Assembly: GCF_002277895.1 (NCBI RefSeq)
Contig: NZ_CP023000.1
Span: 1 to 64,000 of the forward strand
From: Rhizobium sp. 11515TR
GTDB taxonomy: Bacteria; Pseudomonadota; Alphaproteobacteria; Rhizobiales; Rhizobiaceae
Length of the DNA stretch: 64,000 nt
Direction: 5' to 3'
This document shows, one piece after another, positions 1 through 34,444 of this stretch; position 1 is the first letter of the stretch; each line of letters opens with the position of its first letter. Made by a program: the position numbers and the translations under genes. The notes beneath the pieces were generated by a model. The model worked only from the letters and a program-made list of their open reading frames with translations. It made no database searches and had not been told where the DNA came from.

Positions 1-795
1 GACCGTGACATCGAAGTCCTCAAGGCTGCGCATTTGCCGATCGAACCAGTCCAGCGCGTTGGGGCGGAAGCGATCCGCCCAGGAAAGGCCTGTCCTGATC
101 GATTTCACCCCGAGCCGCTTCATCCAGGCGACCGCCTCGTCAAGGCGCGGATCTTCGAAGTGAAACCATTGAACCAGGCCGAGTTCCGGGACATGCCGGG
201 CGAAGGCGTCGAGGGCCGGCTTCGGCGTACCGTCCTCACGCAGAAGACCCATGTAGTAGTGCCGATAATAGGAAGAACCCTCCGCTTCCTTATGGCGCGT
301 CGTCGCTTCCCATGATCTCGGAAGGTCAAACAGACTGTACCACTGGAATTGCGGCACCTTTCCCTTGAGCAGCTCGACGGTACGGTTCAAGCCCCAAAGC
401 TGCACGTCTTCGGCGCCAAAACTGGATACGCCCACCTCGCTGACCCAGACGGGAAGATCGGTGACACCAGCGATTTCGGCAATTCTCTGCGGCCATTCGT
501 CGATCTGCCAGAGATTCCAATCCAGCGGAAAGCCGTGGACTGCGACGGCGTCGAGATGGTCCAAGACGCCGTAATTCTTCATTCGGTCCATGAAAGCGGG
601 ATCGATCGGAGAGATGCCGCCAAGCACCTTGATCAGATCGGGATTCGCAAGTGCGATCGCGTCAGCGGCCAATATCGCCATTTCGGCAAACCGGCTCCAG
701 TCCGGATCCATCTCCGGATCCCAGTGCGACTTGTTGTTTGGTTCGTTCCAAATCATAGCTGCTTTGATCATGCTGGTCTCCCGCGACGAGCTCAT
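1..795 (-). CDS. Glycosidase of clan GH-A type (GH39-like), 3' end cut by window edge
   Basis: The reading frame stays open for 265 codons from ATG at 795 to the window edge, so the C-terminus is missing. Near the N-terminus is IWNEPNNKSHW, where the Glu of the NEP motif fits the acid/base of clan GH-A retaining glycosidases. Further on, LPVWVSEVG offers a candidate nucleophile Glu. Together they suggest a beta-xylosidase/GH39-like fold, but the substrate cannot be read. No signal peptide is visible, so it is probably cytoplasmic. Its ATG overlaps the stop of the upstream histidine phosphatase (ATGA), which implies translational coupling in an operon with inositol-3-phosphate synthase. A role in trimming or recycling an inositol- or xylose-containing glycoside would fit this context but is inference. 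Confidence 0.75.
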   Translation of the reverse strand, partial: MSSSRETSMIKAAMIWNEPNNKSHWDPEMDPDWSRFAEMAILAADAIALANPDLIKVLGGISPIDPAFMDRMKNYGVLDHLDAVAVHGFPLDWNLWQIDEWPQRIAEIAGVTDLPVWVSEVGVSSFGAEDVQLWGLNRTVELLKGKVPQFQWYSLFDLPRSWEATTRHKEAEGSSYYRHYYMGLLREDGTPKPALDAFARHVPELGLVQWFHFEDPRLDEAVAWMKRLGVKSIRTGLSWADRFRPNALDWFDRQMRSLEDFDVTV

Positions 796-2619: not shown

Positions 2620-4383
2620 ATGCTGGTCTATGGAGATATGGAGCGTGTCGAGGAGGCCGCGTCGATATGCTGCCGGATCTCAGGTTACATGGCGGCGTGC
2701 TTAAGCTTGAAGCCGGATCGCCATCGGCATGAACTCCTGGTGCAGACCTTCATTATGACGGGCGAGCTCGTCCAAGGGATTGCCGATCGTGAATTTCAGC
2801 AAAGAGGCTGCGACGAAATTTCCGACAGGCAGAATGCCGGGGCAGAGCTGCTGTTGCTGCAAGCTCGGATGATTCTGCAGTCATGGCAGGGAAATTTCAC
2901 CGGGTCTCTGACGCATTTGGCCGATTGGAGACCGTTGCTGGAGCGCCTCAGGCTTGAGGAACCCATCCGGATAAGGCGGCCCGAAGGTTATGCCCATTAT
3001 GCGCTCTATCCTGAGAGCTTTCTGGAGGCGGCTTTGCGTTCAGGCCTCGCCTCCGAGACCGTGGTGATCGGCGTGCGCAGTATCGGCGTCGGCCTTGGCG
3101 TGCTGGTCGCGGCTGCGCTCGGCTCGGGGCCCGCCTATTCCTTGCGGCCGACGGGCGATCCTTTCCGCCGGCACGTGCTGCCAGGGGAAACCTTGCAAAA
3201 TCGCATTCTGAGCCGATCCGATACGGATTTCGCCATTGTCGATGAAGGCCCCGGATTGTCGGGCAGTTCATTCGGCTGCATAGCGGATTGGCTCGAGACG
3301 AATGGCGTCCCGGCCGAGCGCCTTCATTTTTTTCCAAGTCACAAGGGCGAGCCAGGTGGGCAGGTTAGCAAGGCGCATCTTCACAGATGGAGGCAGCGCC
3401 GGCCCCATGTCGTCGATGTTCACGAGCTGATCCTGGATGGGCCGGAACAGAAACATAGTTTGAAGTCGTGGGCTTGTGAGCTCCTGGGCGTACGCGGAAA
3501 TTCCTGGCAGGACCTCTCGGGAGGCGAGTGGCGAAGGCTTCGCTATCAGGATCCGGAAAATTGGCCGCCAAGCCATCGGCAGCAGGAAAAGCTCAAATTT
3601 CTGCTGTCGGACGGCGAGGCGCGCTATCTGGTGAAATTTGCCGGGCTTTGCGATACGGCAACCAAGCAGGCAAGAGGCAAGCTATTGAGCGAGGCCGGCT
3701 TCACGCCGCCGGTGCTCGGAACCTGCCATGGCTTCATCGTCGAACCATGGGCAGAGGGCTGCTCAATCGCGGCCGATTCGTTATCGGCGGAGATGGTTGA
3801 GCAGATAGGCCAATATCTTGGTTTCCGGGCGCGTCACCTTCCTGCTGCCCATGGAGGAGCATCGCTTTCCGATCTATGTCATATGGCCGTCGTCAATATC
3901 GAGGAAGCCCTCGGAAGCGAGGCAGCTCATCGCATCGCGCGCTTGATCGGCCGGTCGCATCGCCTGACCAAATATTTGCGGCGGACGGATACGGACAATC
4001 GGCTCCACCGATGGGAATGGGTAAGGCGGCCGGACGGCCGCCTGATCAAGACCGATGCGCTCGATCACAATGCCTCTCATGATCTCATCGGATGCCAGGA
4101 TGTCGCCTGGGATATCGCAGGCGCCTGCGTGGAATTCGATCTATCGAAAGCGCAGCGGCTGCATTTGGCACAGATCGTTGCAACGCAAACCGGTCGCGAT
4201 GTGCGCGAGGATGTGCTTGACGTATTCGAGGCATGCTATCTGGGTTTTCAGATCGGCCTTTGGTCTTTGGCGGCACAAGGCCAAGATATTGCTGAACGAG
4301 GTCGTCTGACGAATGCCACGGCGCGCTATGAAGGCCACATCCGCACCTTAATGGCCGACCGTCCCGCCATCTTCAATGATTGA
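2620..4383 (+). CDS. Phosphoribosyltransferase-like / kinase-like fusion protein of unknown function
   Basis: A protein of 587 residues that I cannot name. Residues about 120-300 look like a type I phosphoribosyltransferase: VDEGPGLSGSSF near 207-218 resembles the PRPP-binding loop. The C-terminal half (about 330-587) resembles a phosphotransferase of the APH/choline-kinase type, with LVKFAG as a possible lysine strand, DALDHNASHDLIG in place of the catalytic loop, and DVAWDIAG in place of the metal-binding DxD region. Start 2620 was chosen over an in-frame ATG at 2563 because AGAGG precedes it at proper spacing. The gene is divergent from ino1, with no EcfG motif on its own side. A role in nucleotide or sugar-phosphate chemistry is inference. 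Confidence 0.7.
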   Translation: MLVYGDMERVEEAASICCRISGYMAACLSLKPDRHRHELLVQTFIMTGELVQGIADREFQQRGCDEISDRQNAGAELLLLQARMILQSWQGNFTGSLTHLADWRPLLERLRLEEPIRIRRPEGYAHYALYPESFLEAALRSGLASETVVIGVRSIGVGLGVLVAAALGSGPAYSLRPTGDPFRRHVLPGETLQNRILSRSDTDFAIVDEGPGLSGSSFGCIADWLETNGVPAERLHFFPSHKGEPGGQVSKAHLHRWRQRRPHVVDVHELILDGPEQKHSLKSWACELLGVRGNSWQDLSGGEWRRLRYQDPENWPPSHRQQEKLKFLLSDGEARYLVKFAGLCDTATKQARGKLLSEAGFTPPVLGTCHGFIVEPWAEGCSIAADSLSAEMVEQIGQYLGFRARHLPAAHGGASLSDLCHMAVVNIEEALGSEAAHRIARLIGRSHRLTKYLRRTDTDNRLHRWEWVRRPDGRLIKTDALDHNASHDLIGCQDVAWDIAGACVEFDLSKAQRLHLAQIVATQTGRDVREDVLDVFEACYLGFQIGLWSLAAQGQDIAERGRLTNATARYEGHIRTLMADRPAIFND

Positions 4384-4731: not shown

Positions 4732-5775
4732 CTATTCGCCAATGCCGTCGCTTCCGGCAGCATATATTGCATCAATGACTGCGGCAGAATTGATCAGGCC
4801 TTCGCAGGCAGGGTCATAGCTATTGTCTCTTGCCAAATGCGTTGCCCAGGCTGCCGCTGCCCGGCCGCCCCATTCATCCGGCGGTTCGACAAGAAGATCG
4901 CTGCGTGTTCCTCTGTATCGTTCTGCGGCAAAATCATAGAAAGAACCATTGAGGTTCCGCATGGCGGCCCCTCCCTCCGTTCCATGGAAGCTTGCGCCGA
5001 TGACTGCGTCGCGGCCAGCGTTGAGGCCCCAGGAGCAGGCCAATCGAAGAGTGACGCCATTCGACAAAGTTACGGTGGCGAAGGCGAAATCTTCCACATC
5101 GTTACTGTCGGGACGGATCGGAGCCCCCTTTCGAAGAAGGCGGCTTTGGACCTCGGAGACGCCGGGGAAGTCGAGTGTCCATAACGCCAAGTCGGCCAGA
5201 TGGATTCCAAGATCCATGACGCAGCCCCCGCCCGAGCGTTGCCTGTCGTAGAACCAGGGTTTGTCGGGTCCATAGGCGTTATGAAAGACCATATCGACGG
5301 CGAAGATCCGGCCGAGCTCTCCTTTGCGGACAATGTCACGGATGAGGCTCATGGCTTTCGTGTGCCTATAGGAAAGGTCCACCTGCATCAAGCGGTCTGC
5401 CTTCCGGGCTGCCGCAATCGCCTGTTCGACTTCGGTTCGGGTGCGTCCCAGCGGCTTTTGGCAAAAGACGGCAATGCCTTGCTCCAAGGCAGCAACGGTC
5501 TGCTCTGCGTGCAAGGCGCTTGGGGTGGCAATGATGATCCCATCGAGCGGTTCGGTCAGCAGATCATCGAAGTGAGGCACGATCTTGGCCTGCCCGGCAA
5601 GCTCTGCGGCTGTTTCCGCCATCTCCGCCGATGGGTCGCAGATGAACGTCTTTTCGACTAGCCCGGTGCCCAGGATAGCCTTCATGCGGTGCCTGCCAAT
5701 CCAGCCGACGCCCAGAAAACCAAGCCGGAGGCCCTTATCCCTCCTCCGGTAATAATATTCGTCGCCAATGCTCAT
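4732..5775 (-). CDS. Gfo/Idh/MocA family NAD(P)-dependent oxidoreductase
   Basis: A protein of 347 residues. LGFLGVGWIGRHRM near the N-terminus is the Rossmann dinucleotide motif, FCQKPLGRT near 105-113 is the family's EKP-type signature (QKP here), and MDLGIHLADLALW near 190-202 holds the conserved active-site GxH. The family oxidises or epimerises sugars, inositols and sugar acids; the substrate is not readable. Its ATG shares one base with the stop of the upstream medium-chain dehydrogenase, so the two are translated together. Both follow the stress promoter at 6822-6846 and are divergent from the glycan operon. A step on an inositol or hexose intermediate would fit. Confidence 0.88.
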   Translation of the reverse strand: MSIGDEYYYRRRDKGLRLGFLGVGWIGRHRMKAILGTGLVEKTFICDPSAEMAETAAELAGQAKIVPHFDDLLTEPLDGIIIATPSALHAEQTVAALEQGIAVFCQKPLGRTRTEVEQAIAAARKADRLMQVDLSYRHTKAMSLIRDIVRKGELGRIFAVDMVFHNAYGPDKPWFYDRQRSGGGCVMDLGIHLADLALWTLDFPGVSEVQSRLLRKGAPIRPDSNDVEDFAFATVTLSNGVTLRLACSWGLNAGRDAVIGASFHGTEGGAAMRNLNGSFYDFAAERYRGTRSDLLVEPPDEWGGRAAAAWATHLARDNSYDPACEGLINSAAVIDAIYAAGSDGIGE

Positions 5776-6761
5776 CAGTATATCACCAGGGCTTTGAGGA
5801 AGCCGCCGGGGCGGTCCCGCGTCATGTTCAAGGCATCATCAAGCCGCTCAAGCGGAAAACGATGGGTCAGGAAAGACCATGGATCGAGCCGGCCGGCTTC
5901 GATTGCCGCGATTGCATCGCGAATGCCTTGCACATAAACGGCAGGATCCCGTTCGTGAGCATTGACGACATCGAGCCCTCGCCAGTTCCACAACTGCATA
6001 TTGACCTGCCTTGGACCGTCTTGATGATAGCCTGCAATGACGAGGCGTCCACGTTCGCGGGTCAGTTCGGCTGCGAGATCGAGCGGCCATTGCTTGCCAA
6101 CGGCCTCGATCACACGATCGCAGAATTGCCCCCGCGTCGCTTGCTTCACCTTCTCGATAATCTGCCAGTGGTCCGCCATCTCTATAGTTTCGAAAGCCCC
6201 CACGCGTTTGGCGATCTCCAGAGAAAACGGCCGCCGGGAGATCGCGATGACATGCGCACCGGCAGCCACGCACAGCTGGGTCAGCAAAGCGCCGAGGAAG
6301 CCAATTCCGACGATGGCGATGAGCTGCCCTGGCTGAACGTCGCATCGCTCGAAAATATTCATAGCGCAACCCAACGGCTCTCCCGGAAACGGCCGATTGT
6401 CGAGCCAGGTGGGTAGCCGGACAACGTTGCTCTCAACGGCGAGATCGTAGGTGGCGTAAGCATGCTGGCTTAAAGTGGCAACACGATCGCCAACGGCAAA
6501 ACCGGCGACATCATCTCCGATCGCATCGATAGTCCCCCAGCCTTCATGTCCCAGTCCTCCTGGCTCTGTCGGAAACCGCATCCATTCCGGGCCTGACCAT
6601 GGCGTCAGGTTCGAGGCGCATACTCCGCAACCTTCCAATTTCACACGCAATTGACCGGCAGCGGGTTCAGGCAAAGCCATGCGTTGTACGTGCAGCTGCC
6701 CAGGGCCTGTAACGACGGCCGCTTTCATATCGTCTGCCTGCACTGATGTGATCGCGTTCAT
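5775..6761 (-). CDS. Medium-chain alcohol dehydrogenase-like oxidoreductase
   Basis: A 328-residue MDR-superfamily protein. GCGVCASNL carries the catalytic-zinc Cys and GLGHEGWG the His-Glu pair. The usual four-Cys structural zinc loop is absent, which is common in shorter sugar and polyol dehydrogenases. VGIGFLGALLTQL is the NAD(P)-binding glycine motif. The start at 6761 has AGGAG about 8 nt upstream and follows the promoter at 6822-6846 by roughly 55 nt. It is coupled to the Gfo/Idh/MocA gene and faces the glycan operon from the opposite strand. It probably oxidises a polyol or sugar. The pairing with a MocA-type enzyme recalls inositol or scyllo-inositol metabolism, but the substrate is unknown. 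Confidence 0.85.
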   Translation of the reverse strand: MNAITSVQADDMKAAVVTGPGQLHVQRMALPEPAAGQLRVKLEGCGVCASNLTPWSGPEWMRFPTEPGGLGHEGWGTIDAIGDDVAGFAVGDRVATLSQHAYATYDLAVESNVVRLPTWLDNRPFPGEPLGCAMNIFERCDVQPGQLIAIVGIGFLGALLTQLCVAAGAHVIAISRRPFSLEIAKRVGAFETIEMADHWQIIEKVKQATRGQFCDRVIEAVGKQWPLDLAAELTRERGRLVIAGYHQDGPRQVNMQLWNWRGLDVVNAHERDPAVYVQGIRDAIAAIEAGRLDPWSFLTHRFPLERLDDALNMTRDRPGGFLKALVIY

Positions 6762-6821: not shown

Positions 6822-6846
6822 AACTGGCACGCGCATGGCTTGTTCC
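6822..6846 (-). promoter_or_regulatory. EcfG-type promoter for the dehydrogenase pair
   Basis: The minus strand reads GGAAC, 16 nt, AGTT (plus-strand AACT 6822-6825, GTTCC 6842-6846). It is divergent from a second copy at 6953-6977, so one intergenic region of 260 nt serves both operons. Confidence 0.75.
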
Positions 6847-6952: not shown

Positions 6953-6977
6953 GGAACATTCCTTAGGGATCACTGTT
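6953..6977 (+). promoter_or_regulatory. EcfG-type promoter for the glycan operon
   Basis: GGAAC at 6953-6957, a 16-nt spacer, then TGTT at 6974-6977. The predicted start near 6985 lies about 37 nt before ATG 7022, the first of eight tightly packed genes ending at 15474. Confidence 0.82.
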
Positions 6978-7021
6978 AGGGGCGATCAAAAACCTCTCAA
7001 CTCAACAGCCCAGGATGTTCA

Positions 7022-8131
7022 ATGTCACATATTCTCGTCACCGGTGGATGCGGTTTTATTGGTCGGCATGTCACTGAGGAACTGCTTGAAAACGGATATC
7101 AGGTACGCATTCTTGATGCGTTGATCGATCAGGTTCACGGTCCTTCTGGCTTCCAGAACGTGATGGATACAACGGATGTTGTTCGTGCTGATGTGCGCGA
7201 TAAAGGGGCGGTCCGCGAGGCTTTGCAAGGCATTGATGCCGTCATCCACCTAGCGGCGGAGGTCGGTGTCGGCCAGTCCATGTACGAGATTGCCCGTTAT
7301 GTAGGTACCAACGATCTCGGTACCGCCGTTCTTCTGGAAGCCATGATCGGCCTTCCGATCAGACGAATTGTCGTCGCATCCTCGATGAGCGTCTATGGCG
7401 AGGGCATGTATGTCTCGCCGGTAGGGCATCGCCTCGGCTATATAAGGCGCGATGTCAGTCGTCTCGCCGAGGGACTGTGGGATCCGCTGAGCCCCAACGG
7501 TGAGCCGCTCCTGCCTGCGCCCACAGATGAGGAGAAACCCGTCGATCTGGTCTCGATCTATGCGCTGACAAAATATGCGCAGGAGCGCCAGACGCTCATC
7601 TTCGGCCGCGCCTATGGCATCGATGCAGTGGCATTACGTCTGTTCAACGTCTTTGGTGCCGGTCAGGCGCTTTCGAATCCCTATACGGGCGTGCTCGCCA
7701 ATTTCGCGTCGCGTCTTGCCAATGGCCAGCCGCCGATGATTTTCGAAGATGGCAATCAGCGCCGCGACTTTGTTCATGTGCGCGATGTTGCTCGCGCTTT
7801 TCGCCTGGCACTGGAGCGCAAGCCGGCGGCGGGTCACGTCATCAATATCGGCAGCGGCCAAGCCTATACCATAGCGCAGGTCGCAATGCTGCTTGCCGCA
7901 GCCATGGGGACTCCTGAATTGGCACCCGAAATTACCGGCAAATCCCGCAGCGGCGATATCCGTCATTGCTTCGCCGATATTTCAAAAGCGAGGGAATTGC
8001 TCGGCTTCGAGCCGCGTTACCATCTCGATGGATCGCTCGAGTCCTTTGCGGACTGGGTTTTGACGACCGAAGCTATCGATAGGAATGCCGAGATGACCCA
8101 GCATCTCAAGGAACGAGGGCTCATGTCATGA
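7022..8131 (+). CDS. NAD-dependent nucleotide-sugar epimerase/dehydratase
   Basis: An extended short-chain dehydrogenase of 369 residues. TGGCGFIGRH at the N-terminus binds NAD, HLAAEVGVG is the conserved second strand, SSMSVYGEG carries the catalytic Ser region, and YALTKYAQE is the YxxxK catalytic pair. FRRDFVHVRD-like sequence (here QRRDFVHVRDVARAF) is typical of UDP- or GDP-sugar 4-epimerases and dehydratases. At 369 residues it is slightly longer than usual because of an insert around 150-185. It is the first gene of the operon, with AGGA upstream of ATG 7022, and overlaps the next epimerase by 4 nt. It probably supplies an activated sugar to the four glycosyltransferases downstream; which sugar is unknown. 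Confidence 0.87.
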   Translation: MSHILVTGGCGFIGRHVTEELLENGYQVRILDALIDQVHGPSGFQNVMDTTDVVRADVRDKGAVREALQGIDAVIHLAAEVGVGQSMYEIARYVGTNDLGTAVLLEAMIGLPIRRIVVASSMSVYGEGMYVSPVGHRLGYIRRDVSRLAEGLWDPLSPNGEPLLPAPTDEEKPVDLVSIYALTKYAQERQTLIFGRAYGIDAVALRLFNVFGAGQALSNPYTGVLANFASRLANGQPPMIFEDGNQRRDFVHVRDVARAFRLALERKPAAGHVINIGSGQAYTIAQVAMLLAAAMGTPELAPEITGKSRSGDIRHCFADISKARELLGFEPRYHLDGSLESFADWVLTTEAIDRNAEMTQHLKERGLMS

Positions 8132-9192
8132 GATTACCCGAAGGCCCAATCATCATTGTTGGCGGCAGCGGCTTCATAGGAAGCAATCTCGCCGACAGCT
8201 ATCTTAGAGACGGTGAGGACGTGATCGTCCTCGACAATCTTAGCCGGCCCGGCGTCGAGCAGAATCTTCGCTGGCTGAAAAGCAATCACGGAGATCGCGT
8301 TCAATCGGCAATCGCGGATATCCGCGACTTCGATGCCATCGCTCCATTTTTCATAGGGGCACGGGCAGTCTTTCATCTTGCGGCTCAAACGGCGGTGACG
8401 ACCAGCCTCGACCATCCTCTGCATGATTTCGAGACGAATGCCCGTGGCACGCTCAATGTGCTGGAAGCTGTCCGCAAGGCGGGCAACACGGCGCCGATCA
8501 TTTTTTCCAGTACGAACAAGGTCTACGGCGACATTCACGACATCGCGATGGCCGGATTGGAAGATCGCTATATACCCGCCGACGAATTGCTGCGCGAGCA
8601 CGGCTTCGACGAGGATCGCAGACTGAATTTCTGCACGCCATATGGCTGCTCCAAGGGGGTCGCAGATCAATATGTCCTCGACTATGCCAAGTCCTTCGGT
8701 TCGCTTACCGCCGTTTTGCGCATGAGCTGCATCTATGGCCCACGGCAGTTTGGCACCGAAGATCAAGGCTGGGTCGCTCATTTCATGATCCGCGCACTGA
8801 ACGACGAAGCCATTTCGATTTATGGCGACGGCCGGCAAGTGCGAGACATTTTGCATGTCGATGATGCCGTTCGCGCCTATCGGGGCCTGCTGAACTCGAT
8901 CGATGAGGCCAAGGGCAAGGCCTTCAATCTGGGGGGAGGGCCTGACAATGCCGTGAGCATTCGCATCGTGCTCAGGGAAATCGAAAGGATCATCGGCAGG
9001 CCGATTGCGACCATGCACTCCGACTGGCGCGTTGGGGATCAGCTTTACTTCGTCACGAACACCGGCGCATTGCGCGAAGCCATCGGCTGGGCGCCCAAAA
9101 TATCATGGCGCAGCGGCGTGCGTGATCTTTGCGATTGGCTCGTGACCAACCGCCTGGGCGATTCTTATCGCGAGCGGAGGGTCTCAGCATGA
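8128..9192 (+). CDS. CDP-paratose/tyvelose 2-epimerase-like nucleotide-sugar epimerase
   Basis: A 354-residue extended SDR. GGSGFIGSNLADSYL binds NAD. The run STNKVYGD, PYGCSKGVADQYVLDY (with the YxxxK pair) and RMSCIYGPRQFGTEDQGW is a strong signature of RfbE-type CDP-paratose 2-epimerases, which invert C2 of a CDP-dideoxyhexose. No CDP-dideoxyhexose dehydratase or reductase is nearby, so a different nucleotide sugar is equally possible. It overlaps its neighbours by 4 nt on both sides. It acts in the cytosol with the preceding epimerase and the UDP-xylose synthase to build the sugar set for the CgeB-like transferases. Confidence 0.85.
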   Translation: MRLPEGPIIIVGGSGFIGSNLADSYLRDGEDVIVLDNLSRPGVEQNLRWLKSNHGDRVQSAIADIRDFDAIAPFFIGARAVFHLAAQTAVTTSLDHPLHDFETNARGTLNVLEAVRKAGNTAPIIFSSTNKVYGDIHDIAMAGLEDRYIPADELLREHGFDEDRRLNFCTPYGCSKGVADQYVLDYAKSFGSLTAVLRMSCIYGPRQFGTEDQGWVAHFMIRALNDEAISIYGDGRQVRDILHVDDAVRAYRGLLNSIDEAKGKAFNLGGGPDNAVSIRIVLREIERIIGRPIATMHSDWRVGDQLYFVTNTGALREAIGWAPKISWRSGVRDLCDWLVTNRLGDSYRERRVSA

Positions 9193-10352
9193 ATGGAGAG
9201 GTCGATGTCTGCCAATCCAGTTTGATACCTTCGCCGGTTTATAGGCTTAACGCTCGCAAGCCGCAGACGGTTCTCATGACGGTGGATGCCGTCGGCGGCG
9301 TATGGCGATACGCGATGGATCTCGCCAAGGGATTACAGCGGTTTGGGGTCCACACAGTGTTCGCCGGGCTTGGGCCGTCGCCTTCCTCCGAACAGGAGCA
9401 GGAAGCAATTGCAATGGGGCCATTGGTTTGGCTGGATGCACCCTTGGATTGGACGGCGGGAAATGAAGATGAGCTCGACACCATTTCCCATCTTCTCGGG
9501 GAGCTTATCGATCGGTATTCGATAGACTTGCTTCATCTCAATCTCCCCTCACAGGCTGCCGGTCTCGATATCGATCTGCCTGTCGTCGTTGTTTCGCATT
9601 CATGCGTGGTGACATGGTTTCAATCCGTGCGCGGTGTGGGTGTCCCCGATCCATGGAGATGGCAATTCTCGCGCAACCGGCGAGGTTTCGACCGCGCCGA
9701 TATCGTCGTTGCGCCGAGTCATAGTCACGCGCATGCGCTCCAAACGTGTTACGGGCCGATCTCCCCTTTGAAGGTCGTCCATAACTCAAGCGAACTCCAT
9801 GCGCAGCCAGCTCCAAAGGAGAATTTTGCCCTGGCGGTTGGCCGATGGTGGGACGATGGCAAGAATGGTGCGGTATTGGATGCAGCCGCACGCCTCTCAC
9901 GCTCGAAGATATTTATGGCGGGGGCTGTGGATGGACCGTCCGGCCAGCATTTTTCCATCAGGCATGCCGTTCAGCTGGGAGAATTGCATCATCACCAGGT
10001 CGCCGCCGTTATGACCCAGGCCGGTATCGTCGTGTCGCCTTCACTCTACGAACCCTTCGGGCTCGCTGCGCTTGAGGGAGCCCGTGCCGGAGCCGCGCTC
10101 GTATTAGCGGATATTCCGACCTATCGCGAGCTTTGGGACGGAGCCGCACTCTTTGCAGATCCGCACGACGCCGTCGGGTTTGCCGATGCGATCGATTTGC
10201 TGTCAGAGGACGAGAGGCTGCGGAAAGAGAAAGGTTTATCGGCACAAAATCGATCGCAGGCCTATTCGCTCGATCATCAGTGCCGGTCGCTTCTGAATGT
10301 TTACGCAAGCGCCATGCAACATGCCGATATGAGAGAGGCGGTGCATCCATGA
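9189..10352 (+). CDS. GT4-type glycosyltransferase
   Basis: A protein of 387 residues with the two-Rossmann GT-B fold expected of family GT4. The N-terminus has DAVGGVWRYAMDLAKGL (acceptor-side glycine loop). The C-terminal half carries YEPFGLAALEGARAG, the E-x7-E nucleotide-sugar motif. No membrane segment or signal peptide is visible, so it acts at the inner face of the membrane or in the cytosol. The ATG at 9189 overlaps the previous stop (ATGA). It is probably the first transferase in a chain followed by three CgeB-like enzymes. Donor and acceptor cannot be inferred from the sequence. Confidence 0.87.
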   Translation: MNGEVDVCQSSLIPSPVYRLNARKPQTVLMTVDAVGGVWRYAMDLAKGLQRFGVHTVFAGLGPSPSSEQEQEAIAMGPLVWLDAPLDWTAGNEDELDTISHLLGELIDRYSIDLLHLNLPSQAAGLDIDLPVVVVSHSCVVTWFQSVRGVGVPDPWRWQFSRNRRGFDRADIVVAPSHSHAHALQTCYGPISPLKVVHNSSELHAQPAPKENFALAVGRWWDDGKNGAVLDAAARLSRSKIFMAGAVDGPSGQHFSIRHAVQLGELHHHQVAAVMTQAGIVVSPSLYEPFGLAALEGARAGAALVLADIPTYRELWDGAALFADPHDAVGFADAIDLLSEDERLRKEKGLSAQNRSQAYSLDHQCRSLLNVYASAMQHADMREAVHP

Positions 10353-11470
10353 AATTCGTATTCTACACGCACTCTCTCGTTTCGGATTGGAACCATGGCA
10401 ATGCGCATTTCCTGCGGGGGGTCATGCGTGAGCTCCTCAAGCGCGGACATAGTGCGATTGCCCTGGAGCCTTCCGATTCCTGGAGCCGCCGCAATCTCCT
10501 CATGGATCAGGGTCCGCAGACGCTGGAAGCTTTCCGCCGCACATTCCCGCAGTTGACATCACTCTCCTACGACAGCGCCTTCGACCACGAGGAGGCGATT
10601 AGCGATGCTGATGTCGTCGTCGTCCACGAGTGGACGGATCCCGCACTCGTCAAGCGCCTTGGTAAAGCCAGACGCATCGGCGGGCGTTTCACACTCATCT
10701 TCCATGACACGCACCATCGCGCCGTCTCCGCACGGAGCGAAATCGCAGGCCTCGATCTTGAGAACTATGACCTTATTCTCGCTTTTGGCGAGACTTTGCG
10801 GCAGCGCTATCTCAAGGCAGGGTGGGGAAACAATGTCTTCACGTGGCACGAAGCCGCCGACGAGGCGTTGTTCAGGCCGATGCCCGAGGTGGAAAAGAAG
10901 GGCGATCTCATATGGATCGGCAATTGGGGCGACGATGAACGCAGTGCCGAGATCGGCCGTTTTCTCGTTGAGCCTGCGAGCCGTATCGGGAAATACGCAC
11001 TTACGACCAGCGTGCGAGGTGTGCGCTATCCTCCGGCCGCGCTTGAGGCTCTGCGCAAAGCCGGCATCCATTACGGCGGCTGGATCGCCAATGCCGAGGT
11101 GCCGCGGGCATTCGCCGAAAACCGCGTGACCGTGCATATTCCCCGTCGCCCCTATGTTGAATCCCTGCCAGGCATTCCGACGATACGTGTCTTCGAGGCA
11201 CTCGCCTGTGGGATTCCGCTGATATCCGCACCATGGGACGACTGCGAGGAGCTTTTCCGGCCCGGTAAGGACTTTCTCATCGCCGGAACCGGCGACGAAA
11301 TGACCCGCCTCATTCGCGATGTCCTTTCGGACCAGGCGCTCGCCGATGCGCTGATTGCATCCGGCCTGGAGCGCATACGCACGCGCCACACCTGCGGCCA
11401 TCGCGTCGACGAACTCCTGAAAATTCTGGATCGGCATAATGCAGTGGGTAAGCGGGAGGTTGCGGAATGA
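10349..11470 (+). CDS. CgeB-like glycosyltransferase, first of three paralogues
   Basis: A protein of 373 residues. It starts with FYTHSLVSDWNHGNAHFLRG, the N-terminal pattern shared by the next two genes, and ends with TIRVFEALACGIPLISAPW and a regular helical tail typical of the CgeB / Glyco_trans_1_2 C-terminal domain. CgeB of Bacillus takes part in spore-crust glycosylation. The family is GT-B fold and lacks the full GT4 E-x7-E motif. Start 10349 overlaps the previous stop by 4 nt. Being one of three tandem, diverged copies suggests stepwise addition of different sugars to one acceptor. Confidence 0.85.
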   Translation: MKFVFYTHSLVSDWNHGNAHFLRGVMRELLKRGHSAIALEPSDSWSRRNLLMDQGPQTLEAFRRTFPQLTSLSYDSAFDHEEAISDADVVVVHEWTDPALVKRLGKARRIGGRFTLIFHDTHHRAVSARSEIAGLDLENYDLILAFGETLRQRYLKAGWGNNVFTWHEAADEALFRPMPEVEKKGDLIWIGNWGDDERSAEIGRFLVEPASRIGKYALTTSVRGVRYPPAALEALRKAGIHYGGWIANAEVPRAFAENRVTVHIPRRPYVESLPGIPTIRVFEALACGIPLISAPWDDCEELFRPGKDFLIAGTGDEMTRLIRDVLSDQALADALIASGLERIRTRHTCGHRVDELLKILDRHNAVGKREVAE

Positions 11471-12555
11471 AGATCGCTTTCTACGGCTCGAGCCTTCTTT
11501 CGGCCTATTGGAACGGTGCGGCCACCTATTACCGCGGTCTGCTGAAGGCATTGGCGGCCAGGGGTTACCGCATCACCTTCTACGAGCCGGACGTTTATCA
11601 GCGCCAGGAACATCGCGATATCGATCCACCCGATTGGTGTGAGGTCGTCGTCTATGATGGAACGATTGCCGCCTTGAAGAAGGTTGCGGCCGAGGCCGCC
11701 CTTGCCGATATTGTCATCAAGACGAGCGGCGTCGGCTTCGAGGACGATCTGCTTTTGCAGGAGGTCATGACGGCTGCCCGGCCGGAGGCTCTCAAAATTT
11801 TCTGGGATGTGGATGCGCCGGCGACGCTTGCCGAAATGCAGACATCCGCGGATCATCCGCTTCGCAAGGCACTTGCCGACCTAGATCTGATTTTGACCTA
11901 TGGCGGCGGGGAGCCTGTCATAAAAAAATACCGGCAGCTTGGCGCGCCAGTATGTATTCCGATCTATAACGCGCTCGATCCGCAGACACATCATTCCGTC
12001 ATCGCCGATCCTCGCTTCGAGGCGACCCTTGGCTTTCTTGGCAACCGTCTGCCTGATCGAGAGGCGCGGGTCGAGGCCTTTTTTCACGAGCCGGCCGCAG
12101 CCATGCCTTCGCAGCGCTTTCTTCTGGGCGGTGCAGGCTGGGACGACAAGCCGATGTCGAGTAACGTCCGCTATATCGGGCACGTACCGACCCGCGATCA
12201 CAACGCCTTTAACGCGACACCGAGGGCGGTGCTCAATATCTCGCGCGAGAGCATGGCCGAAAATGGCTTTTCGCCAGCCACTCGGGTGTTTGAGGCGGTC
12301 GGCGCCGGCGCCTGCCTGATCACCGACTATTGGGACGGAATTGACCATTTTCTGACGCCGAACGAGGAGGTGTTTGTCGCGCGCGACGGCCGAGATGTGT
12401 GCGAAATCCTGTCCGGCCTGACACCCGATCGTGCAGCAGAGACCGGGAAAAGAGCGCTCGCTCGCGTGCTCGGCGCACACACTTATCAGCACCGGGCCGT
12501 CGAAGTCGATCAGCTCTTACGGTCCCGTTTCGCAAGCAAGGAGGCCGCCGAATGA
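11467..12555 (+). CDS. CgeB-like glycosyltransferase, second paralogue
   Basis: A protein of 362 residues. FYGSSLLSAYWNGAATYYRG at the start mirrors the first copy. The middle has FWDVDAPATLAEM, with aspartates where a sugar-nucleotide or acceptor site would lie. The C-terminus has ATRVFEAVGAGACLITDYW, the CgeB C-terminal signature. It is coupled to both neighbours by ATGA overlaps. The central DVDAPATLA block is shared with the third copy (DIDTPVTLA) but not the first, so copies two and three are the closer pair. The product is probably a glycoconjugate assembled under stress; donor and acceptor are unknown. Confidence 0.85.
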   Translation: MKIAFYGSSLLSAYWNGAATYYRGLLKALAARGYRITFYEPDVYQRQEHRDIDPPDWCEVVVYDGTIAALKKVAAEAALADIVIKTSGVGFEDDLLLQEVMTAARPEALKIFWDVDAPATLAEMQTSADHPLRKALADLDLILTYGGGEPVIKKYRQLGAPVCIPIYNALDPQTHHSVIADPRFEATLGFLGNRLPDREARVEAFFHEPAAAMPSQRFLLGGAGWDDKPMSSNVRYIGHVPTRDHNAFNATPRAVLNISRESMAENGFSPATRVFEAVGAGACLITDYWDGIDHFLTPNEEVFVARDGRDVCEILSGLTPDRAAETGKRALARVLGAHTYQHRAVEVDQLLRSRFASKEAAE

Positions 12556-13655
12556 GTCGCGCACTCGACATCGTGATATTGGGTCTCTCCTTGTCTTCCT
12601 CCTGGGGAAATGGTCATGCTACGACATTCCGTTCCTTGATCAGAGGTCTCCATGCCGAGGGGCATCATGTGCTTTTCCTCGAGCGGGATGTTCCCTGGTA
12701 TGCTGCGCATAGGGACCTTTGCGATGCGGATTTCTGTGAGCTTTCTTATTACGGCAATATCGATGAACTCAGAAGCCGCTTTAGGCAGCGATTGATCGCC
12801 GCCGATGCCGTCATCATCGGTTCCTATGTGCCGGATGGCGTAACGGTGATCGATACGGTTGCCGCGCTAAAGCCCCAGCTCTTATGCTTCTATGATATCG
12901 ACACGCCGGTTACGCTTGCGAAACTCGGACAGGACGACCAGGAATATGTCGCCAGGCGTCAAATGCCGATATTCGATGTCTATCTGTCTTTTTCGGGGGG
13001 AGGCGTTCTTAACCGGTTGATGGCGGAATTTGGCGTCTCACGCGCGGAAGCTCTCTATTGCTCGGTCGATGAGCGGCGTTACAGGAATACGGGCGAGGAG
13101 ACCTTTTGGGATCTCGGCTATCTTGGCACCTACAGCCGCGACCGCCAGGAGAAATTGCAGAAGCTTCTGATAGAGCCGGCGCGGCGGTTGCCGCATATGC
13201 GCTTTATCGTTGCCGGGCCGCAATTTCCCGCTGATATCGACTGGCCCGAGAATGTAACTCGCATTGAACACCTCGCGCCCGCCGATCATCCGTCCTTCTA
13301 CAGCCGGCAAAGGTTTACCCTCAATATTACTCGCTCCGACATGATCGAGGCAGGCTGGTCGCCAAGCGTGCGCCTGTTCGAGGCGGCAGCTTGCGGCACC
13401 CCGATCATCAGCGATTTCTGGCGCGGTATCGACGAGCTTTTCCCACAGGATCGCTCCATTTTGATCGCGCATGACACTGCAGACGTGGTCGGTGCGCTGA
13501 CCGGTCTTTCGGAGGAAACGAGGCGCGGAATGGCGGATCTCGCGCAGCGCATCGTCCATGGTGATCACACCGGGCGTGCCCGCGCCAGGCAGTTGGCGAA
13601 TATTCTGTCGGAAGGCCTGCCGCAAAATCGAGTAGGCCGACGTGCGTTAGCGTAG
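12552..13655 (+). CDS. CgeB-like glycosyltransferase, third paralogue
   Basis: A protein of 367 residues. LGLSLSSSWGNGHATTFRSL at the N-terminus, FYDIDTPVTLAKL in the middle and SVRLFEAAACGTPIISDFW near the C-terminus match the other two copies. ATG 12552 overlaps the previous stop. After it the spacing opens to 20 nt before the UDP-xylose synthase, which has its own strong AAGGAG site. Xylose is therefore an attractive donor for one of these transferases, but nothing in the sequence proves it. No membrane segment is seen. Confidence 0.85.
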   Translation: MSRALDIVILGLSLSSSWGNGHATTFRSLIRGLHAEGHHVLFLERDVPWYAAHRDLCDADFCELSYYGNIDELRSRFRQRLIAADAVIIGSYVPDGVTVIDTVAALKPQLLCFYDIDTPVTLAKLGQDDQEYVARRQMPIFDVYLSFSGGGVLNRLMAEFGVSRAEALYCSVDERRYRNTGEETFWDLGYLGTYSRDRQEKLQKLLIEPARRLPHMRFIVAGPQFPADIDWPENVTRIEHLAPADHPSFYSRQRFTLNITRSDMIEAGWSPSVRLFEAAACGTPIISDFWRGIDELFPQDRSILIAHDTADVVGALTGLSEETRRGMADLAQRIVHGDHTGRARARQLANILSEGLPQNRVGRRALA

Positions 13656-13675
13656 AAATCTAAAGGAGAAATTGC

Positions 13676-14707
13676 ATGCGGCAGGTAATCAAAAAGAACA
13701 TTCTCGTTGCTGGAGGCGCAGGCTTTGTCGGCTCTCACCTTTGCGACGCACTCATGGCCGGCGGCCATCGGGTCATTTGTGTCGACAGCTTTTTGACAAG
13801 CTCGCCCAATAATATCAAGCTATTGCAAAATAACTCTAATTTCACGCTTATCGAGCATGACATATGCGAAGAGCTTGAGATCGCCGAGCCGCTCCATCAA
13901 ATCTACAACCTGGCGTGCCCGGCCTCTCCGCCATTCTATCAGGCCGACCCTATCCATACGATGATGACCAGCGTGGCCGGAACGGGGAATCTCCTGAAAC
14001 TCGCAGAGCGTCATGGCGCCTCCTTCCTGCAGGCTTCCACGAGCGAAGTCTATGGCGATCCGGAGGAGCATCCGCAGCAGGAAGACTATTGGGGTCACGT
14101 CAATTGCATCGGACCGCGCGCATGCTACGACGAGGGAAAACGTGCGGCGGAGGCTCTCTGCTTCGATAGTCTGCGTGCGGGCTCCGTCGACGCGCGCGTC
14201 GTGCGCATCTTCAATACATATGGCCCTCGCATGCAGCCGAATGATGGGCGTATTGTCTCAAATTTCATCGTCCAGGCGCTGCAGCAAGAACCACTGACGA
14301 TTTACGGGGATGGCAACCAGACGAGATCCTTTTGCTACGTGTCCGATCTGGTTGAGGGGCTGATCCGCTCGATGAATGTGCAGCCAAATGTCGGCTTGCC
14401 AATCAATCTCGGCAATCCGGGGGAGTTTACGGTCAAAGAACTTGCGCAAGTGATCCTGGAGATGGTGCCGACAAACTCAGGCATTGCTTACCGGCCGCTG
14501 CCTATCGACGATCCACAGCGTCGGCGGCCGGACATAACGCGCGCAAAGCAACTTTTGTCCTGGGAGCCGAAGGTTCATCTCACCGAAGGCCTGGAATATA
14601 CCGTTGCCTGGTTTCGTCAGGCGCTTCACGAACCGCAATCTATCCAAAGGCCACGTCATAAGACCACGCCGATCCGGCGTCCGACGGGTCTTTCAATCGG
14701 AGCGTGA
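13676..14707 (+). CDS. uxs: UDP-glucuronate decarboxylase (UDP-xylose synthase)
   Basis: A protein of 343 residues that converts UDP-glucuronate to UDP-xylose with an internally recycled NAD. VAGGAGFVGSHLCDAL binds NAD. CPASPPFYQADPIHT, STSEVYGDPEEHPQ, YWGHVNCIGPRACYDEGKR (YDEGK is the catalytic YxxxK) and RIFNTYGPRM form the typical signature of this family and separate it from ordinary dehydratases. The N-terminus is short, so it is a soluble cytosolic form. AAGGAG lies 8 nt before ATG 13676. It makes the one nucleotide sugar in this operon whose identity can be named with confidence, pointing to a xylose-containing product. Confidence 0.92.
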   Translation: MRQVIKKNILVAGGAGFVGSHLCDALMAGGHRVICVDSFLTSSPNNIKLLQNNSNFTLIEHDICEELEIAEPLHQIYNLACPASPPFYQADPIHTMMTSVAGTGNLLKLAERHGASFLQASTSEVYGDPEEHPQQEDYWGHVNCIGPRACYDEGKRAAEALCFDSLRAGSVDARVVRIFNTYGPRMQPNDGRIVSNFIVQALQQEPLTIYGDGNQTRSFCYVSDLVEGLIRSMNVQPNVGLPINLGNPGEFTVKELAQVILEMVPTNSGIAYRPLPIDDPQRRRPDITRAKQLLSWEPKVHLTEGLEYTVAWFRQALHEPQSIQRPRHKTTPIRRPTGLSIGA

Positions 14708-14709
14708 TC

Positions 14710-15474
14710 ATGGAGAGCGAAGAGGAGTTGCGGCGCCAGATTGCCGAACTGGCGCCATGGTTTCACAACTTGCGTATAAGAGGCATCGAAACAGCTCCCG
14801 ATCATTTTCTCGGGGACTATCCAAGCTTCAAATGGCGGCGCTTCAAGGATGTCGTTCCCCTGGATTTGACGGGCAAGACCGTTCTCGACATCGGCTGTAA
14901 CGCGGGATTTTATTCGCTTGAGATGAAACGACGCAATGCAGACCGCGTGGTGGCGATCGATACAGATCCGCATTATCTGCGGCAAGCCGCATTCGTGGCA
15001 AAGCAGGCCGAGGTTGACATCGACTTCCGGCAAATGTCCGTCTACGAGATCGAGCAACTGCGCGAAAAGTTTGATCTCGTCCTTTTCATGGGTGTCCTCT
15101 ACCATCTGCGTCATCCCCTCCTGGCGCTTGACCTGCTTCGAGAGCACGTCGTCAAGGATCTGATGCTGTTTCAATGTATGCAGCGCGGCGTGGACGACAC
15201 GCCGGAACTGAAGGACGATTACGACTTCGAGGACAGAGAGATTTTCAATCGTCCTGATTATCCGAAGCTGTTCTTCGTAGAAAATCGCTATGCCGGGGAT
15301 CCGACAAACTGGTTCATACCGAACAAGGCGGCGACGGAGGCGATGCTGCGCAGCGCAGGATTTACAATGCTGCAGAATCCGGAACCAGAGGTATATCTCC
15401 TGCGGTGCAGTACCCGTCGTTTTATGGTCGAAAAACCACCTCTCATTCGCTTACAGGATGAGGGGCAAGGGTGA
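14710..15474 (+). CDS. SAM-dependent methyltransferase, CmoB/DUF1698-like
   Basis: A protein of 254 residues. VLDIGCNAGFYSLEM near 61-75 is the SAM-binding motif I, VVAIDTDPHYL near 82-92 is motif II, and FDLVLFMGVLYHLRHPL near 118-134 resembles the CmoB-type post-I region. An upstream GTG at 14704 overlapping the uxs stop is possible, but GGAG sits 7 nt before ATG 14710, so that start is preferred. As the last gene of the glycan operon it probably O-methylates a sugar or the finished glycoconjugate rather than tRNA. This placement argument is inference. The target atom cannot be read. Confidence 0.85.
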   Translation: MESEEELRRQIAELAPWFHNLRIRGIETAPDHFLGDYPSFKWRRFKDVVPLDLTGKTVLDIGCNAGFYSLEMKRRNADRVVAIDTDPHYLRQAAFVAKQAEVDIDFRQMSVYEIEQLREKFDLVLFMGVLYHLRHPLLALDLLREHVVKDLMLFQCMQRGVDDTPELKDDYDFEDREIFNRPDYPKLFFVENRYAGDPTNWFIPNKAATEAMLRSAGFTMLQNPEPEVYLLRCSTRRFMVEKPPLIRLQDEGQG

Positions 15475-15817
15475 TGCGTCTCAGTGGGCGCGAATGCTCT
15501 GCGTTTACTTCCGCTGCGCGAGCCCTGAGAGATTTGGATACGGAACATCGCCGAGAGAAGGTTTTGTGTGCCGTCTTTAGAAGGGCCGCATAGGATGCAG
15601 AGCCATTTGAAAGTTTCTCCTGACCTCATGGAACATGCTGGGCATGCAGCCGTTCCTTCGAAGTGTGAAAGCGTTTGAGTGCACCTCAGAACGGTTCTGG
15701 GTCATTTCCCTATTGCGGCGAATATCAAAGCGCGAAGTAGGCTTCATTTGAAATCACCGAGAGGATGTATCGGCGTCGCCAAAGATGTCAGGTCTGCATC
15801 CGGATCAGAGCTGCTGA
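15475..15817 (+). other. 343-nt intergenic region and sigma-gene leader
   Basis: No convincing gene is present. It contains the EcfG-type promoter at 15630-15654 and, in the leader after it, the near-palindrome CAGAACGGTTCTG at 15687-15699 (6-nt arms around one base), which could be an operator or part of an RNA structure. The leader from the predicted start near 15662 to ATG 15818 is about 155 nt, long for such a gene. Confidence 0.5.
15630..15654 (+). promoter_or_regulatory. EcfG-type promoter of the sigma-factor gene (autoregulatory)
   Basis: GGAAC at 15630-15634, 16 nt, CGTT at 15651-15654: a perfect match to the textbook consensus. The block is nearly palindromic, and the minus strand also reads GGAAC-N16-TGTT across 15632-15656. 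Confidence 0.85.
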
Positions 15818-16348
15818 ATGAGCGATACGGCAAAGGAGAATACAGTGATCCACCTGTCCCGTTCCAATCGTTTGCAGGCTGAAATCGTGGAGCTCATTCC
15901 AGCCCTGCGCGCCTTCGCCAGAACATTCCACCGAAATTCGACGGATGCCGATGACTTGGTTCAAGAGACACTGACAAAAGCTCTGGCCAATATCGACCAG
16001 TTCGATCCTGGCACTCGGTTGAAATCGTGGCTGTTCACCATCATGCGTAATACATTCTGCACAAAGTTCCGCATCGCCAAACGCGAGGCTCCGGGCAACA
16101 AGAAATGCATATCCGACGTCGGCGTCGCACCAGCGTCGCAGGAATGGACGATCCGGGCAAAGGAACTACAGCGGGCGTGCAACCGCCTGCCGGAACATTA
16201 TCGGATAGTGTTGGAATATGTGGTGATCGAAGGCCGCTCCTACGAAGATGCCGCTACGAAGTTCGGTTGTGCGATTGGCACCGTAAAAAGTCGCATCAAT
16301 CGGGCTCGCCAGCAGCTCGCGGTCCAGCTTGACGAGGACCTTTACTGA
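15818..16348 (+). CDS. EcfG-like ECF sigma factor (general stress type)
   Basis: A protein of 176 residues with only sigma region 2 and region 4, as in ECF factors. Region 2 (about 25-90) has DADDLVQETLTKALANIDQF and SWLFTIMRNTF, a pattern close to EcfG/RpoE2 proteins of alphaproteobacteria. Region 4 (about 115-170) has LPEHYRIVLEYVVIEGRSYE and GTVKSRINRARQ for -35 recognition. Its own promoter carries the GGAAC-N16-CGTT motif seen throughout the window, so it may direct the local regulon and itself. No NepR anti-sigma or PhyR gene is adjacent, so it is probably an accessory EcfG copy. Its stop lies 11 nt from the stop of a convergent receiver gene. Confidence 0.88.
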   Translation: MSDTAKENTVIHLSRSNRLQAEIVELIPALRAFARTFHRNSTDADDLVQETLTKALANIDQFDPGTRLKSWLFTIMRNTFCTKFRIAKREAPGNKKCISDVGVAPASQEWTIRAKELQRACNRLPEHYRIVLEYVVIEGRSYEDAATKFGCAIGTVKSRINRARQQLAVQLDEDLY

Positions 16349-22012: not shown

Positions 22013-22099
22013 CGGCGATGGTTAGCTCGAACCGCCCTGTGCATGAGTCGGCGTAAATACAGGAGGTGGCATGAAGATGCCGCGCCCGTTGAGAGAACG

Positions 22100-27621: not shown

Positions 27622-27625
27622 TCCG

Positions 27626-34043: not shown

Positions 34044-34444
34044 TGGCTGCCTCGCTTTCCAGGAGGTCGCGGCGGCAAAAAGCGTCGCCGCAATTCGAAC
34101 CGAAGGATGTCTCGCCGCGGCTGGTGCTTTGGGTGACGTTTGGCCTTTTCCTCGGCATGGGTCTTTCTGTTCTCCTTGTCTTTGGCATTCTGTGGTGGAT
34201 TGCGCCGAACGTCGCACAGCCGCAGACGAAGTTCGGGTCTAGGCAGGCGGAGCTAGGCCCACGCCTCGAAGTATCACCATCCGCCAGTCGCGAGCTGATT
34301 CAACGGCAGGCGGAACAGCGCCTCGAGGGGTACGGCTGGATCGATCGTAAGACCGGCACGGCGCATATTCCAATCGACAGGGCCATGGCCATTCTGGGGA
34401 CGCGCGGCTGGCCGGACCGCAATGAACGGGAGGAAACGCGATGA
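34040..34444 (+). CDS. Small membrane-anchored protein of the complex III/oxidase operon
   Basis: A protein of 134 residues. A basic N-terminus (MMAASLSRRSRRQKAS) is followed by one transmembrane helix at about 27-54 and a polar periplasmic tail. The tail has the block LEGYGWIDRKTGTAHIPIDRAM, which recalls small proteins commonly placed between act genes and SCO genes; its function is not established. It overlaps actF and the SCO gene by 4 nt each. A role in assembly or in tethering the complex to the oxidase is inference from position. Confidence 0.75.
   Translation: MMAASLSRRSRRQKASPQFEPKDVSPRLVLWVTFGLFLGMGLSVLLVFGILWWIAPNVAQPQTKFGSRQAELGPRLEVSPSASRELIQRQAEQRLEGYGWIDRKTGTAHIPIDRAMAILGTRGWPDRNEREETR

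Follow-up and report, generated by a model that had tools for sequence, protein, structure and literature searches.

The first 64,000 nucleotides of contig NZ_CP023000.1 of Rhizobium sp. 11515TR (hereafter the window) carry an operon of eight co-directional genes (7022-15474, + strand), which was found to be half of a two-module pathway with a patchy distribution across Alphaproteobacteria. The operon, Module A, comprises a 4-epimerase-like short-chain dehydrogenase/reductase (SDR), an SDR of the CDP-tyvelose 2-epimerase family, a GT4-type glycosyltransferase, three PF13524 glycosyltransferases, a UDP-xylose synthase (UXS) and, often, a methyltransferase of the TIGR04290 family. Module B consists of Ino1 (myo-inositol-3-phosphate synthase), a histidine phosphatase, a clan GH-A-like glycosidase and, often, a methyltransferase. 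The pathway is real and conserved, and the gene set is probably a stress-switched unit of about 16 genes that builds a small methylated, xylose-bearing sugar compound. A new finding is that the glycosidase of Module B is circularly permuted relative to a domain which, in most of the tested genomes lacking Ino1, is fused in unpermuted form to the 2-epimerase.

Gene content and distribution of the two modules

The sequence-only reading of this DNA had described an eight-gene operon with overlapping junctions, and its positions proved correct. Six of the seven junctions overlap by 4 bases (five ATGA, one GTGA), and the seventh is a gap of 20 bp directly 5' of the UXS gene. EPI1 (7022-8131, +) is an extended SDR (PF01370, 2.1e-54) whose top PDB matches are NAD-dependent epimerases (1.1e-44); it was classed as GalE/4-epimerase-like, without a closer assignment. 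EPI2 (8128-9192, +), which carries no glycosidase domain here, displayed full-length homology to TyvE (PDB 9rl0, 1.9e-81; 1orr, 1.1e-79), the next family reaching only 2.1e-37. It is accordingly assigned by homology to the CDP-tyvelose 2-epimerase family, a more specific placement than "epimerase". The GT4-type enzyme (9189-10352, +; PF13439, PF00534) is followed by the PF13524 transferases A (10349-11470, +; 6.7e-35), B (11467-12555, +; 7.1e-37) and C (12552-13655, +; 5.3e-36). These had been read as three diverged CgeB-type paralogues and are indeed true paralogues, with 31% identity between B and C (E 3e-53) and 24% in the pairs A-B and A-C (E about 1e-16 to 2e-16). A search with transferase C against the PDB gave no match.

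The predicted activity of the UXS (UDP-glucuronate decarboxylase; 13676-14707, +) is clear from its homology to PDB 4gll, UDP-glucuronic acid decarboxylase 1 (5.5e-115). The alignment covers residues 6-330, including the YxxxK region, and the motifs STSEVYGDPE and YDEGK are present; none of the NCBIfam models scanned passed its cut-off with this protein. The last gene (14704-15474, +) had been called a methyltransferase, and its product scored 381.7 bits against TIGR04290 (Rta_06860), above the curated cut-off of 300, over positions 1-225 of 226. The match to a tRNA mo5U34 methyltransferase structure (1.5e-16) indicates a CmoB-type relationship. When the hydropathy of fourteen window proteins was analysed, the only ones with a membrane-like segment were Ino1, orf606 and the zinc dehydrogenase, and all eight operon proteins were free of such segments; the glycosidase and the phosphatase lay outside the set.

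Module B runs leftward in the order Ino1, histidine phosphatase, glycosidase. Ino1 (1388-2506, -; PF01658, 2.2e-35) has an annotated orthologue in S. meliloti. The phosphatase (792-1391, -; 199 aa; PF00300 in an orthologue, 1.1e-42) has ATGA overlaps on both sides. The glycosidase gene, in a finding beyond the earlier reading, crosses the contig origin: its N-terminal part is encoded at 1-795 (-) and its frame, joined across the end of contig C3, goes on to C3:1497182. On the other side of the origin it is followed by a pair of genes for a polysaccharide pyruvyl-transferase and an FrhB-type protein (PyrT/FrhB). The annotation of S. meliloti shows a matching order, namely pyruvyl-transferase, FrhB, "beta-xylosidase", phosphatase, Ino1, a hypothetical protein, Gfo/Idh, dehydrogenase and the operon; the GT4 is outside that annotation table, and its region matches in strain 1021 by tblastn.

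The distribution was evaluated in 86 loci, that is, the best 80 named loci by methyltransferase and six further stretches (the window included), compared all against all by BLAST. Twenty further loci, taken from whole-genome samples of the class and the phylum and belonging to 13 families by their codes, hold the same genes. With its own genome counted, the methyltransferase was found in 14 of 61 relatives, 14 of 289 genomes of the class sample and 14 of 398 of the phylum sample, all of them inside the class. In several Rhizobium and Sinorhizobium strains the cassette is located on plasmids. The window itself opens a 1.50-Mb contig of a genome in three contigs, and its nearest plasmid record is from Rhizobium sp. 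AB2/73 (91.7% identity across the full 10.7-kb query).

Both modules stand in one divergent block in two loci (L145 and L146). The methyltransferase gene ends Module A in some genomes; in others it is located inside the Ino1 operon. A tree of 77 methyltransferase sequences (rows L069, L127, L129 and L130 left out; group labels set by script from neighbouring genes) places 20 of the 28 Ino1-module copies on one branch (support 100/99). Fifteen Ino1 stretches were also analysed: Ino1, phosphatase and glycosidase occur together in all of them, a kinase-like gene in 14 and the PyrT/FrhB pair in 13.

Variants of the loci were observed as well. The Mesorhizobium-type loci (L102-L123) hold Ino1 operons with an additional PF13524 transferase and a sugar-phosphate nucleotidyltransferase; next to them lie a BshB2-like (PIG-L type) deacetylase, a GT4, a GNAT protein and a second methyltransferase, which resembles a mycothiol synthesis set. 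In the Rhizobium-type loci L060, L066, L129 and L130 the TIGR04290 methyltransferase lies beside the Ino1 module, preceded by a different set of shared genes that includes an aldo-keto reductase. Cytochrome-oxidase genes lie close to the cassette in some Sinorhizobium/Ensifer loci. Parts of the cassette are also borne by contigs of metagenome-assembled genomes labelled Acidobacteriota, Gemmatimonadota and Verrucomicrobiota (L094, L099, L108), where transfer or binning contamination is possible.

Circular permutation of the glycosidase and its association with Ino1

An extra N-terminal domain extends EPI2 to about 690 aa in 35 of the 86 loci. For this part a radical-SAM or B12 domain had been considered and was rejected, as the extra domain is a homologue of the Ino1-operon glycosidase, with the halves of the match swapped. 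A hidden Markov model of the fused domain gave a two-part match to each of the 14 aligned stand-alone proteins, positions 116-300 coming before about 6-113. When the stand-alone sequences were doubled, a single continuous match was obtained in 11 of the 14, and the split remained in three. The glycosidase of the window, taken from the joined stretch, likewise matches the fused unpermuted domain in swapped order.

In order to survey both forms, every reading frame was read in the 86 loci, the 15 Ino1 stretches and the 20 sample loci. The stand-alone form was found in 34, 15 and 11 of these, respectively, always in swapped order, and the fused form in 35 of the 86 and 6 of the 20. Neither an unpermuted stand-alone form nor a permuted fused form was encountered. 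Two of the fused sample loci (L137, L138) are cut off where the stretch ends, so that the domain end alone is visible. The automatic cut-off required a profile start above 100; L117, L130 and L166 missed it (80, 97 and 99) with the order still swapped, and L124 was read as two pieces. Seven Mesorhizobium loci had seemed to lack the glycosidase and to hold a small family, F25, instead; the all-frame reading located the glycosidase in each, and F25 is therefore an alternative reading frame.

The stand-alone protein starts seven residues before the motif WNEPNN in 13 of the 14 aligned rows; for the fourteenth, L094, the start was set at the motif by the chosen coordinates. In L122 and L125 the glycosidase start overlaps the stop codon of the preceding gene. 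A truncation or a wrongly assigned start was ruled out, since in all 14 proteins the final 100 residues correspond to the N-terminal part of the fused domain. The stand-alone profile aligned with PslG (3.6e-5) from PslG residue 133 onward, which identifies the stand-alone form as the permuted one; the fused-domain profile gave no match in the PDB.

The predicted model of the permuted glycosidase (pLDDT, the predicted local distance difference test, 75.5; pTM, the predicted template modelling score, 0.78) folds as a TIM barrel, in which seven strands of at least three residues are listed. Structure searches returned many unrelated TIM barrels and no GH39 entry among the matches listed; they thus confirm the fold, not the family. 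In clan GH-A the acid/base Glu follows an Asn on strand 4 of the TIM barrel, and the nucleophile Glu lies on strand 7. Both the Glu of NEPN and that of E-V/T/A-G are conserved without exception in the aligned sequences (14 permuted, 12 fused), and in the permuted model they lie on the 1st and 4th strands, the spacing being that of the clan rule. These features are those expected of a retaining glycosidase of clan GH-A, as which the protein is predicted. The cut-off of the GH39 Pfam model PF01229 (26) was missed, one fused domain scoring 12.8 bits and the other fused domain and two permuted proteins giving no match; the enzyme is therefore named clan GH-A-like. No paper on a permuted GH39 was found in the literature searched.

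The two forms were found to differ in their association with Ino1. Among the 86 loci, Ino1 is present in 33, all of which have the stand-alone swapped-order glycosidase; Ino1 is in view in none of the 35 loci with the fused glycosidase. The second sample gave a similar picture: of the 20 loci, 17 had a readable glycosidase, permuted in 11 (Ino1 in 10) and fused in 6 (Ino1 in none). Whole genomes were searched for 44 of the 80 named loci, picked since their fetched stretch was without Ino1. Ino1 was detected in 13 of 13 genomes with stand-alone EPI2 and in 3 of 31 with fused EPI2 (p 1e-8, a value that ignores relatedness). Loci with Ino1 in view (e.g. L058, L122, L124 and L125, all with stand-alone EPI2) are left out of this set, an omission that works against the association. 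The three fused-EPI2 genomes with Ino1 are R. esperanzae and Phyllobacterium endophyticum, which have a separate Ino1 module with a permuted glycosidase (L155, L158), and R. aethiopicum, which has its own in L060. The form switches between close relatives, for instance Devosia geojensis and D. nitrariae. On the methyltransferase tree the fused label requires about 9 changes, at least 3 of them forced by well supported branches, and the association is thus not the history of one clade.

The inositol link had been drawn from one genome, together with the suggestion of a neighbourhood survey for co-occurrence with ino1. In the class sample (289 genomes, own included) the methyltransferase was found in 14 genomes, Ino1 in 29 and both in 6, so that Ino1 accompanies 6 of the 14 methyltransferase genomes vs 23 of the 275 others (Fisher p 0.001). 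In all six the two genes are on one contig, at most about 14 kb apart, and in many genera the Ino1 module is linked to the cassette or its methyltransferase. The inositol idea thereby has strong support as an association, not yet as chemistry.

Promoter-like sites and surrounding genes

An EcfG-type promoter-like site, GGAACATTCCTTAGGGATCACTGTT (GGAAC-N16-TGTT, 6953-6977, +), lies before the main operon. The window holds 3 matches to GGAAC-N15-19-CGTT vs 2.3 expected, the operon site (TGTT) not being among them. Because the pattern shows no genome-wide enrichment, sites from a single genome were given no weight, and orthologues were compared instead. The strict test sought GGAAC-N16/17-YGTT at most 130 bp from the start in non-redundant regions, without the window. 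Sites were found in 15 of 43 epi1, 9 of 27 ino1 and 8 of 41 adh (alcohol dehydrogenase-like) regions, against shuffle means of 0.06, 0.05 and 0.08, respectively. The controls gave 0/44 for cgeA, 0/39 for cgeB, 0/66 for mt, 1/48 for uxs, 0/8 for orf606 and 0/1 for epi2. With a looser pattern and 300 bp the values were 23/54 (epi1), 9/29 (ino1), 11/43 (adh) and 2/8 (orf606), and for the controls 3/82 (mt), 5/60 (cgeA), 3/67 (uxs) and 0/5 (gt4). The sites across orthologues thus exceed chance; even in divergent genomes they are found again 5' of Module A and Module B, and they are seldom seen ahead of internal genes. This recurrence supports the EcfG-type control proposed earlier: the sites appear to be of the EcfG-regulon type (GGAAC-N16/17-CGTT), the window site having TGTT, not CGTT, and the pathway is probably stress-regulated.

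The same promoter type had also been assigned to both neighbours of the operon. This holds for ino1 (GGAAC-N16-TGTT, 2524-2548, -), and less so for the divergent dehydrogenase pair, whose site (GGAAC-N16-AGTT, 6822-6846, -) is weaker than those of epi1 and ino1. The pair consists of a zinc-type alcohol dehydrogenase-like oxidoreductase (5775-6761, -; PF08240, PF00107) and a Gfo/Idh/MocA oxidoreductase (4732-5775, -; PF01408, PF22725), for which no NCBIfam cut-off was reached.

Past the operon, and not mentioned in the sequence-only reading of it, is a gene for a paralogue of the EcfG/PhyR-type extracytoplasmic function sigma factors (15818-16348, +; PF22029 3.5e-13, PF04542, PF08281), with a consensus site (GGAAC-N16-CGTT, 15630-15654, +) 188 bp 5' of it. 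Its product has 53% identity with that of a sigma gene near the R. leguminosarum cassette, which in strain WSM1325 lies about 4 kb past the cassette on the opposite strand. An EcfG-type site was also located about 80-105 bp ahead of the matched domain of the PhyR gene of this genome (C1:3371160). The genome has eight PhyR_sigma2-like matches that pass the cut-off (C1:3370480-3371321 and elsewhere), the window sigma gene included.

Between Ino1 and the dehydrogenase pair lies the kinase-like gene (2620-4383, +), encoding a two-domain protein. Neither Pfam nor a profile search against the PDB gave a match. Its AlphaFold2 model (pLDDT 88.4, pTM 0.88) has a C-terminal choline-kinase/APH fold and superimposes on LicA over 264 residues (Z 19.7, rmsd 4.5); the stretch VDEGPGLSGSS in its middle is presumably a PRPP-like motif.

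Further along the window, an IS110-type transposase (22071-23267) lies about 6.6 kb past the cassette. It is followed by an operon resembling alternative complex III (Fe-S subunit, NrfD, ActD) with SCO1 and a caa3-type oxidase (COX2, COX1; 27572-38763), a protein-isoaspartate methyltransferase domain fused with an erythromycin-esterase-family domain (41988-43979), a phosphate transporter with a PhoU-like protein (53466-55117) and ABC transporter genes (55228-63769) surrounding an inositol-monophosphatase-family gene (59554-60354).

Candidate product and comparison with known systems

The enzyme set (inositol, UDP-xylose, sugar nucleotides, four transferases, a methyltransferase and a glycosidase), together with the lack of membrane segments, suggests a cytosolic oligoside. 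We give an even chance to a general-stress-response pathway making a soluble, cytosolic, O-methylated, xylose-containing oligoside, with inositol as acceptor where Ino1 is present and with a dedicated processing glycosidase. Substrates and order of reactions are inferred from the enzyme families as follows. Ino1 would make inositol 3-phosphate, from which the histidine phosphatase would release inositol; UXS would supply UDP-xylose, and EPI1 and EPI2 would provide one or two more nucleoside diphosphate sugars. The GT4 and the three PF13524 transferases would then attach as many as about four sugars, one after another, to the acceptor, which might be inositol where Ino1 is encoded and otherwise another acceptor or imported inositol. 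The TIGR04290 enzyme would methylate the product, presumably at oxygen, and the clan GH-A glycosidase may trim or recycle it, as MmpH does for the mycobacterial methylmannose polysaccharide (MMP). A protective role under stress is the phenotype that might be expected. In a more specific version, the pathway exists in two interchangeable forms (Ino1 with the permuted glycosidase, or no Ino1 and the unpermuted domain fused to the 2-epimerase), the permutation marks a change of acceptor, and the product represents a novel class of O-methylated inositol oligosides induced by stress; this version is tentative and seems to us somewhat more apt to fail than to hold.

Several observations weigh against this pathway. 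The GT4 scored only 40.7 bits against MshA (TIGR03449; cut-off 462.5), and inositol use by this enzyme would be speculative. Ino1 was not found in 8 of the 14 methyltransferase genomes of the class sample nor in 28 of the 44 picked cassette genomes (a share biased upward by the picking), and inositol cannot therefore be a universal de novo acceptor. One locus (G207/L135) has a permuted glycosidase without Ino1, and in another (L141) Ino1 is present with no glycosidase on its 10.3-kb contig. The exact promoter site is the exception among orthologous regions (28 of the 43 epi1 regions lack it), and GGAAC-N16/17-YGTT shows no enrichment genome-wide (181 matches vs 232 for the reversed control). 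The literature searched yielded no data on expression, mutants or metabolites of the cassette.

A further such point is the PyrT/FrhB pair, which accompanies Module B in 13 of the 15 Ino1 stretches and is present here across the contig origin, because pyruvyl-transferase/FrhB pairs are more usual in surface-polysaccharide loci. The cassette might make a surface glycan (a capsule, a side group of lipopolysaccharide or exopolysaccharide, or a glycolipid cap) that is exported by housekeeping machinery encoded elsewhere, with the pair as a part of this pathway, an explanation that we regard as unlikely. It would also fit the nearest solved relative of the glycosidase, PslG, an enzyme of the Psl polysaccharide. 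However, the Pfam-scanned neighbour families (found in at least five loci; F25, F27, F28, F29, F30, F35, F37 and rarer ones left out) contain no flippase, polymerase, ABC exporter or initiating sugar-phosphate transferase. The lack of flippase, polymerase and export genes noted in the sequence-only reading extends over the Pfam-scanned operon genes, near flanks and conserved neighbour families, in which no Wzx/Wzy or ABC-dependent locus was recognized (some small ORFs unscanned). Moreover, the glycosidase begins right at the barrel strand, with no space for a signal peptide, and its fused form couples it to a sugar-nucleotide enzyme.

The accessory distribution (14 of 61 and 14 of 289 genomes, several plasmid-borne) and the inositol chemistry could also suit a specialised diffusible glycoside made under stress as a signal, nutrient or antimicrobial, a role comparable to that of the rhizopines. 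This is quite improbable, as the cassette is conserved across many families with the same promoter type, and no dedicated exporter or self-resistance gene was found in the scanned conserved set. The earlier analogy to the CgeB-glycosylated spore crust of Bacillus was not borne out: a resting-cell coat, suggested by the three PF13524 transferases, is very improbable, given the breadth of that family and the fact that the scanned conserved set contains no coat or surface protein that could be an acceptor.

If the cytosolic oligoside pathway is correct, the alphaproteobacterial general stress response would gain a small-molecule output beyond trehalose. Model symbionts such as S. meliloti 1021 carry the pathway, which makes it directly testable, and the permuted/fused glycosidase pair would be a natural experiment in which a TIM barrel was rewired together with the acceptor of its pathway.

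Among known systems, the closest by name is TIGR04290 (Rta_06860), a hypothetical equivalog: the window protein passes its cut-off and the S. meliloti and R. leguminosarum cassettes are annotated with the same name, although the model covers the methyltransferase alone. No paper using this name was found in the literature searched, nor was "rhizo-twelve", which we take to be the name given by NCBI staff to a related gene set; the cassette is named in no title or abstract opening there. The S. meliloti locus tags (a guessed range) matched one unrelated paper and are absent from the main texts of PMC6180224 and PMC3616915; the consulted passages of PMC8877191 and PMC4167512 added nothing on the cassette. 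Rhizobium etli EcfG2 (PF00052) is a second, non-canonical EcfG sigma factor on an accessory replicon (PMC3188799; PMC3892343), which the window sigma factor resembles by description; the cassette is named in no target list in the consulted parts of these papers. The requirement of EcfG2 to survive oxidative stress, described in part of PMC3188799, is a lead only.

The PF13524 (Glyco_trans_1_2) domain, which Bacillus CgeB presumably bears, links the three transferases to that protein weakly, the family being broad. PslG and the GH39 glycosidases are closer to the Module B enzyme, PslG being the nearest solved relative by profile, and they share the acid/base Glu of NEPN and another invariant Glu; the stand-alone form of the window type differs in being circularly permuted at the acid/base strand and in missing the GH39 cut-off. 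As in mycothiol and inositol glycoside synthesis, with its Ino1, MshA and phosphatase, the cassette has Ino1, a phosphatase and a GT4, to which the Mesorhizobium-type loci add the BshB2-like (PIG-L type) deacetylase and the GNAT protein. In contrast, the window GT4 is far under the MshA cut-off, and the genes scanned at the window locus included none like MshB or MshC. In outline, the cassette is also like the MMP pathway (ManT, methyltransferase, MmpH), where, according to the consulted part of PMC9883506, a glycosyltransferase, a methyltransferase and a dedicated glycosidase are clustered and the hydrolase primes new chains. The likeness is one of analogy, with no homology claimed, and the window cassette differs from that cluster in its four transferases, its UDP-xylose and its Ino1.

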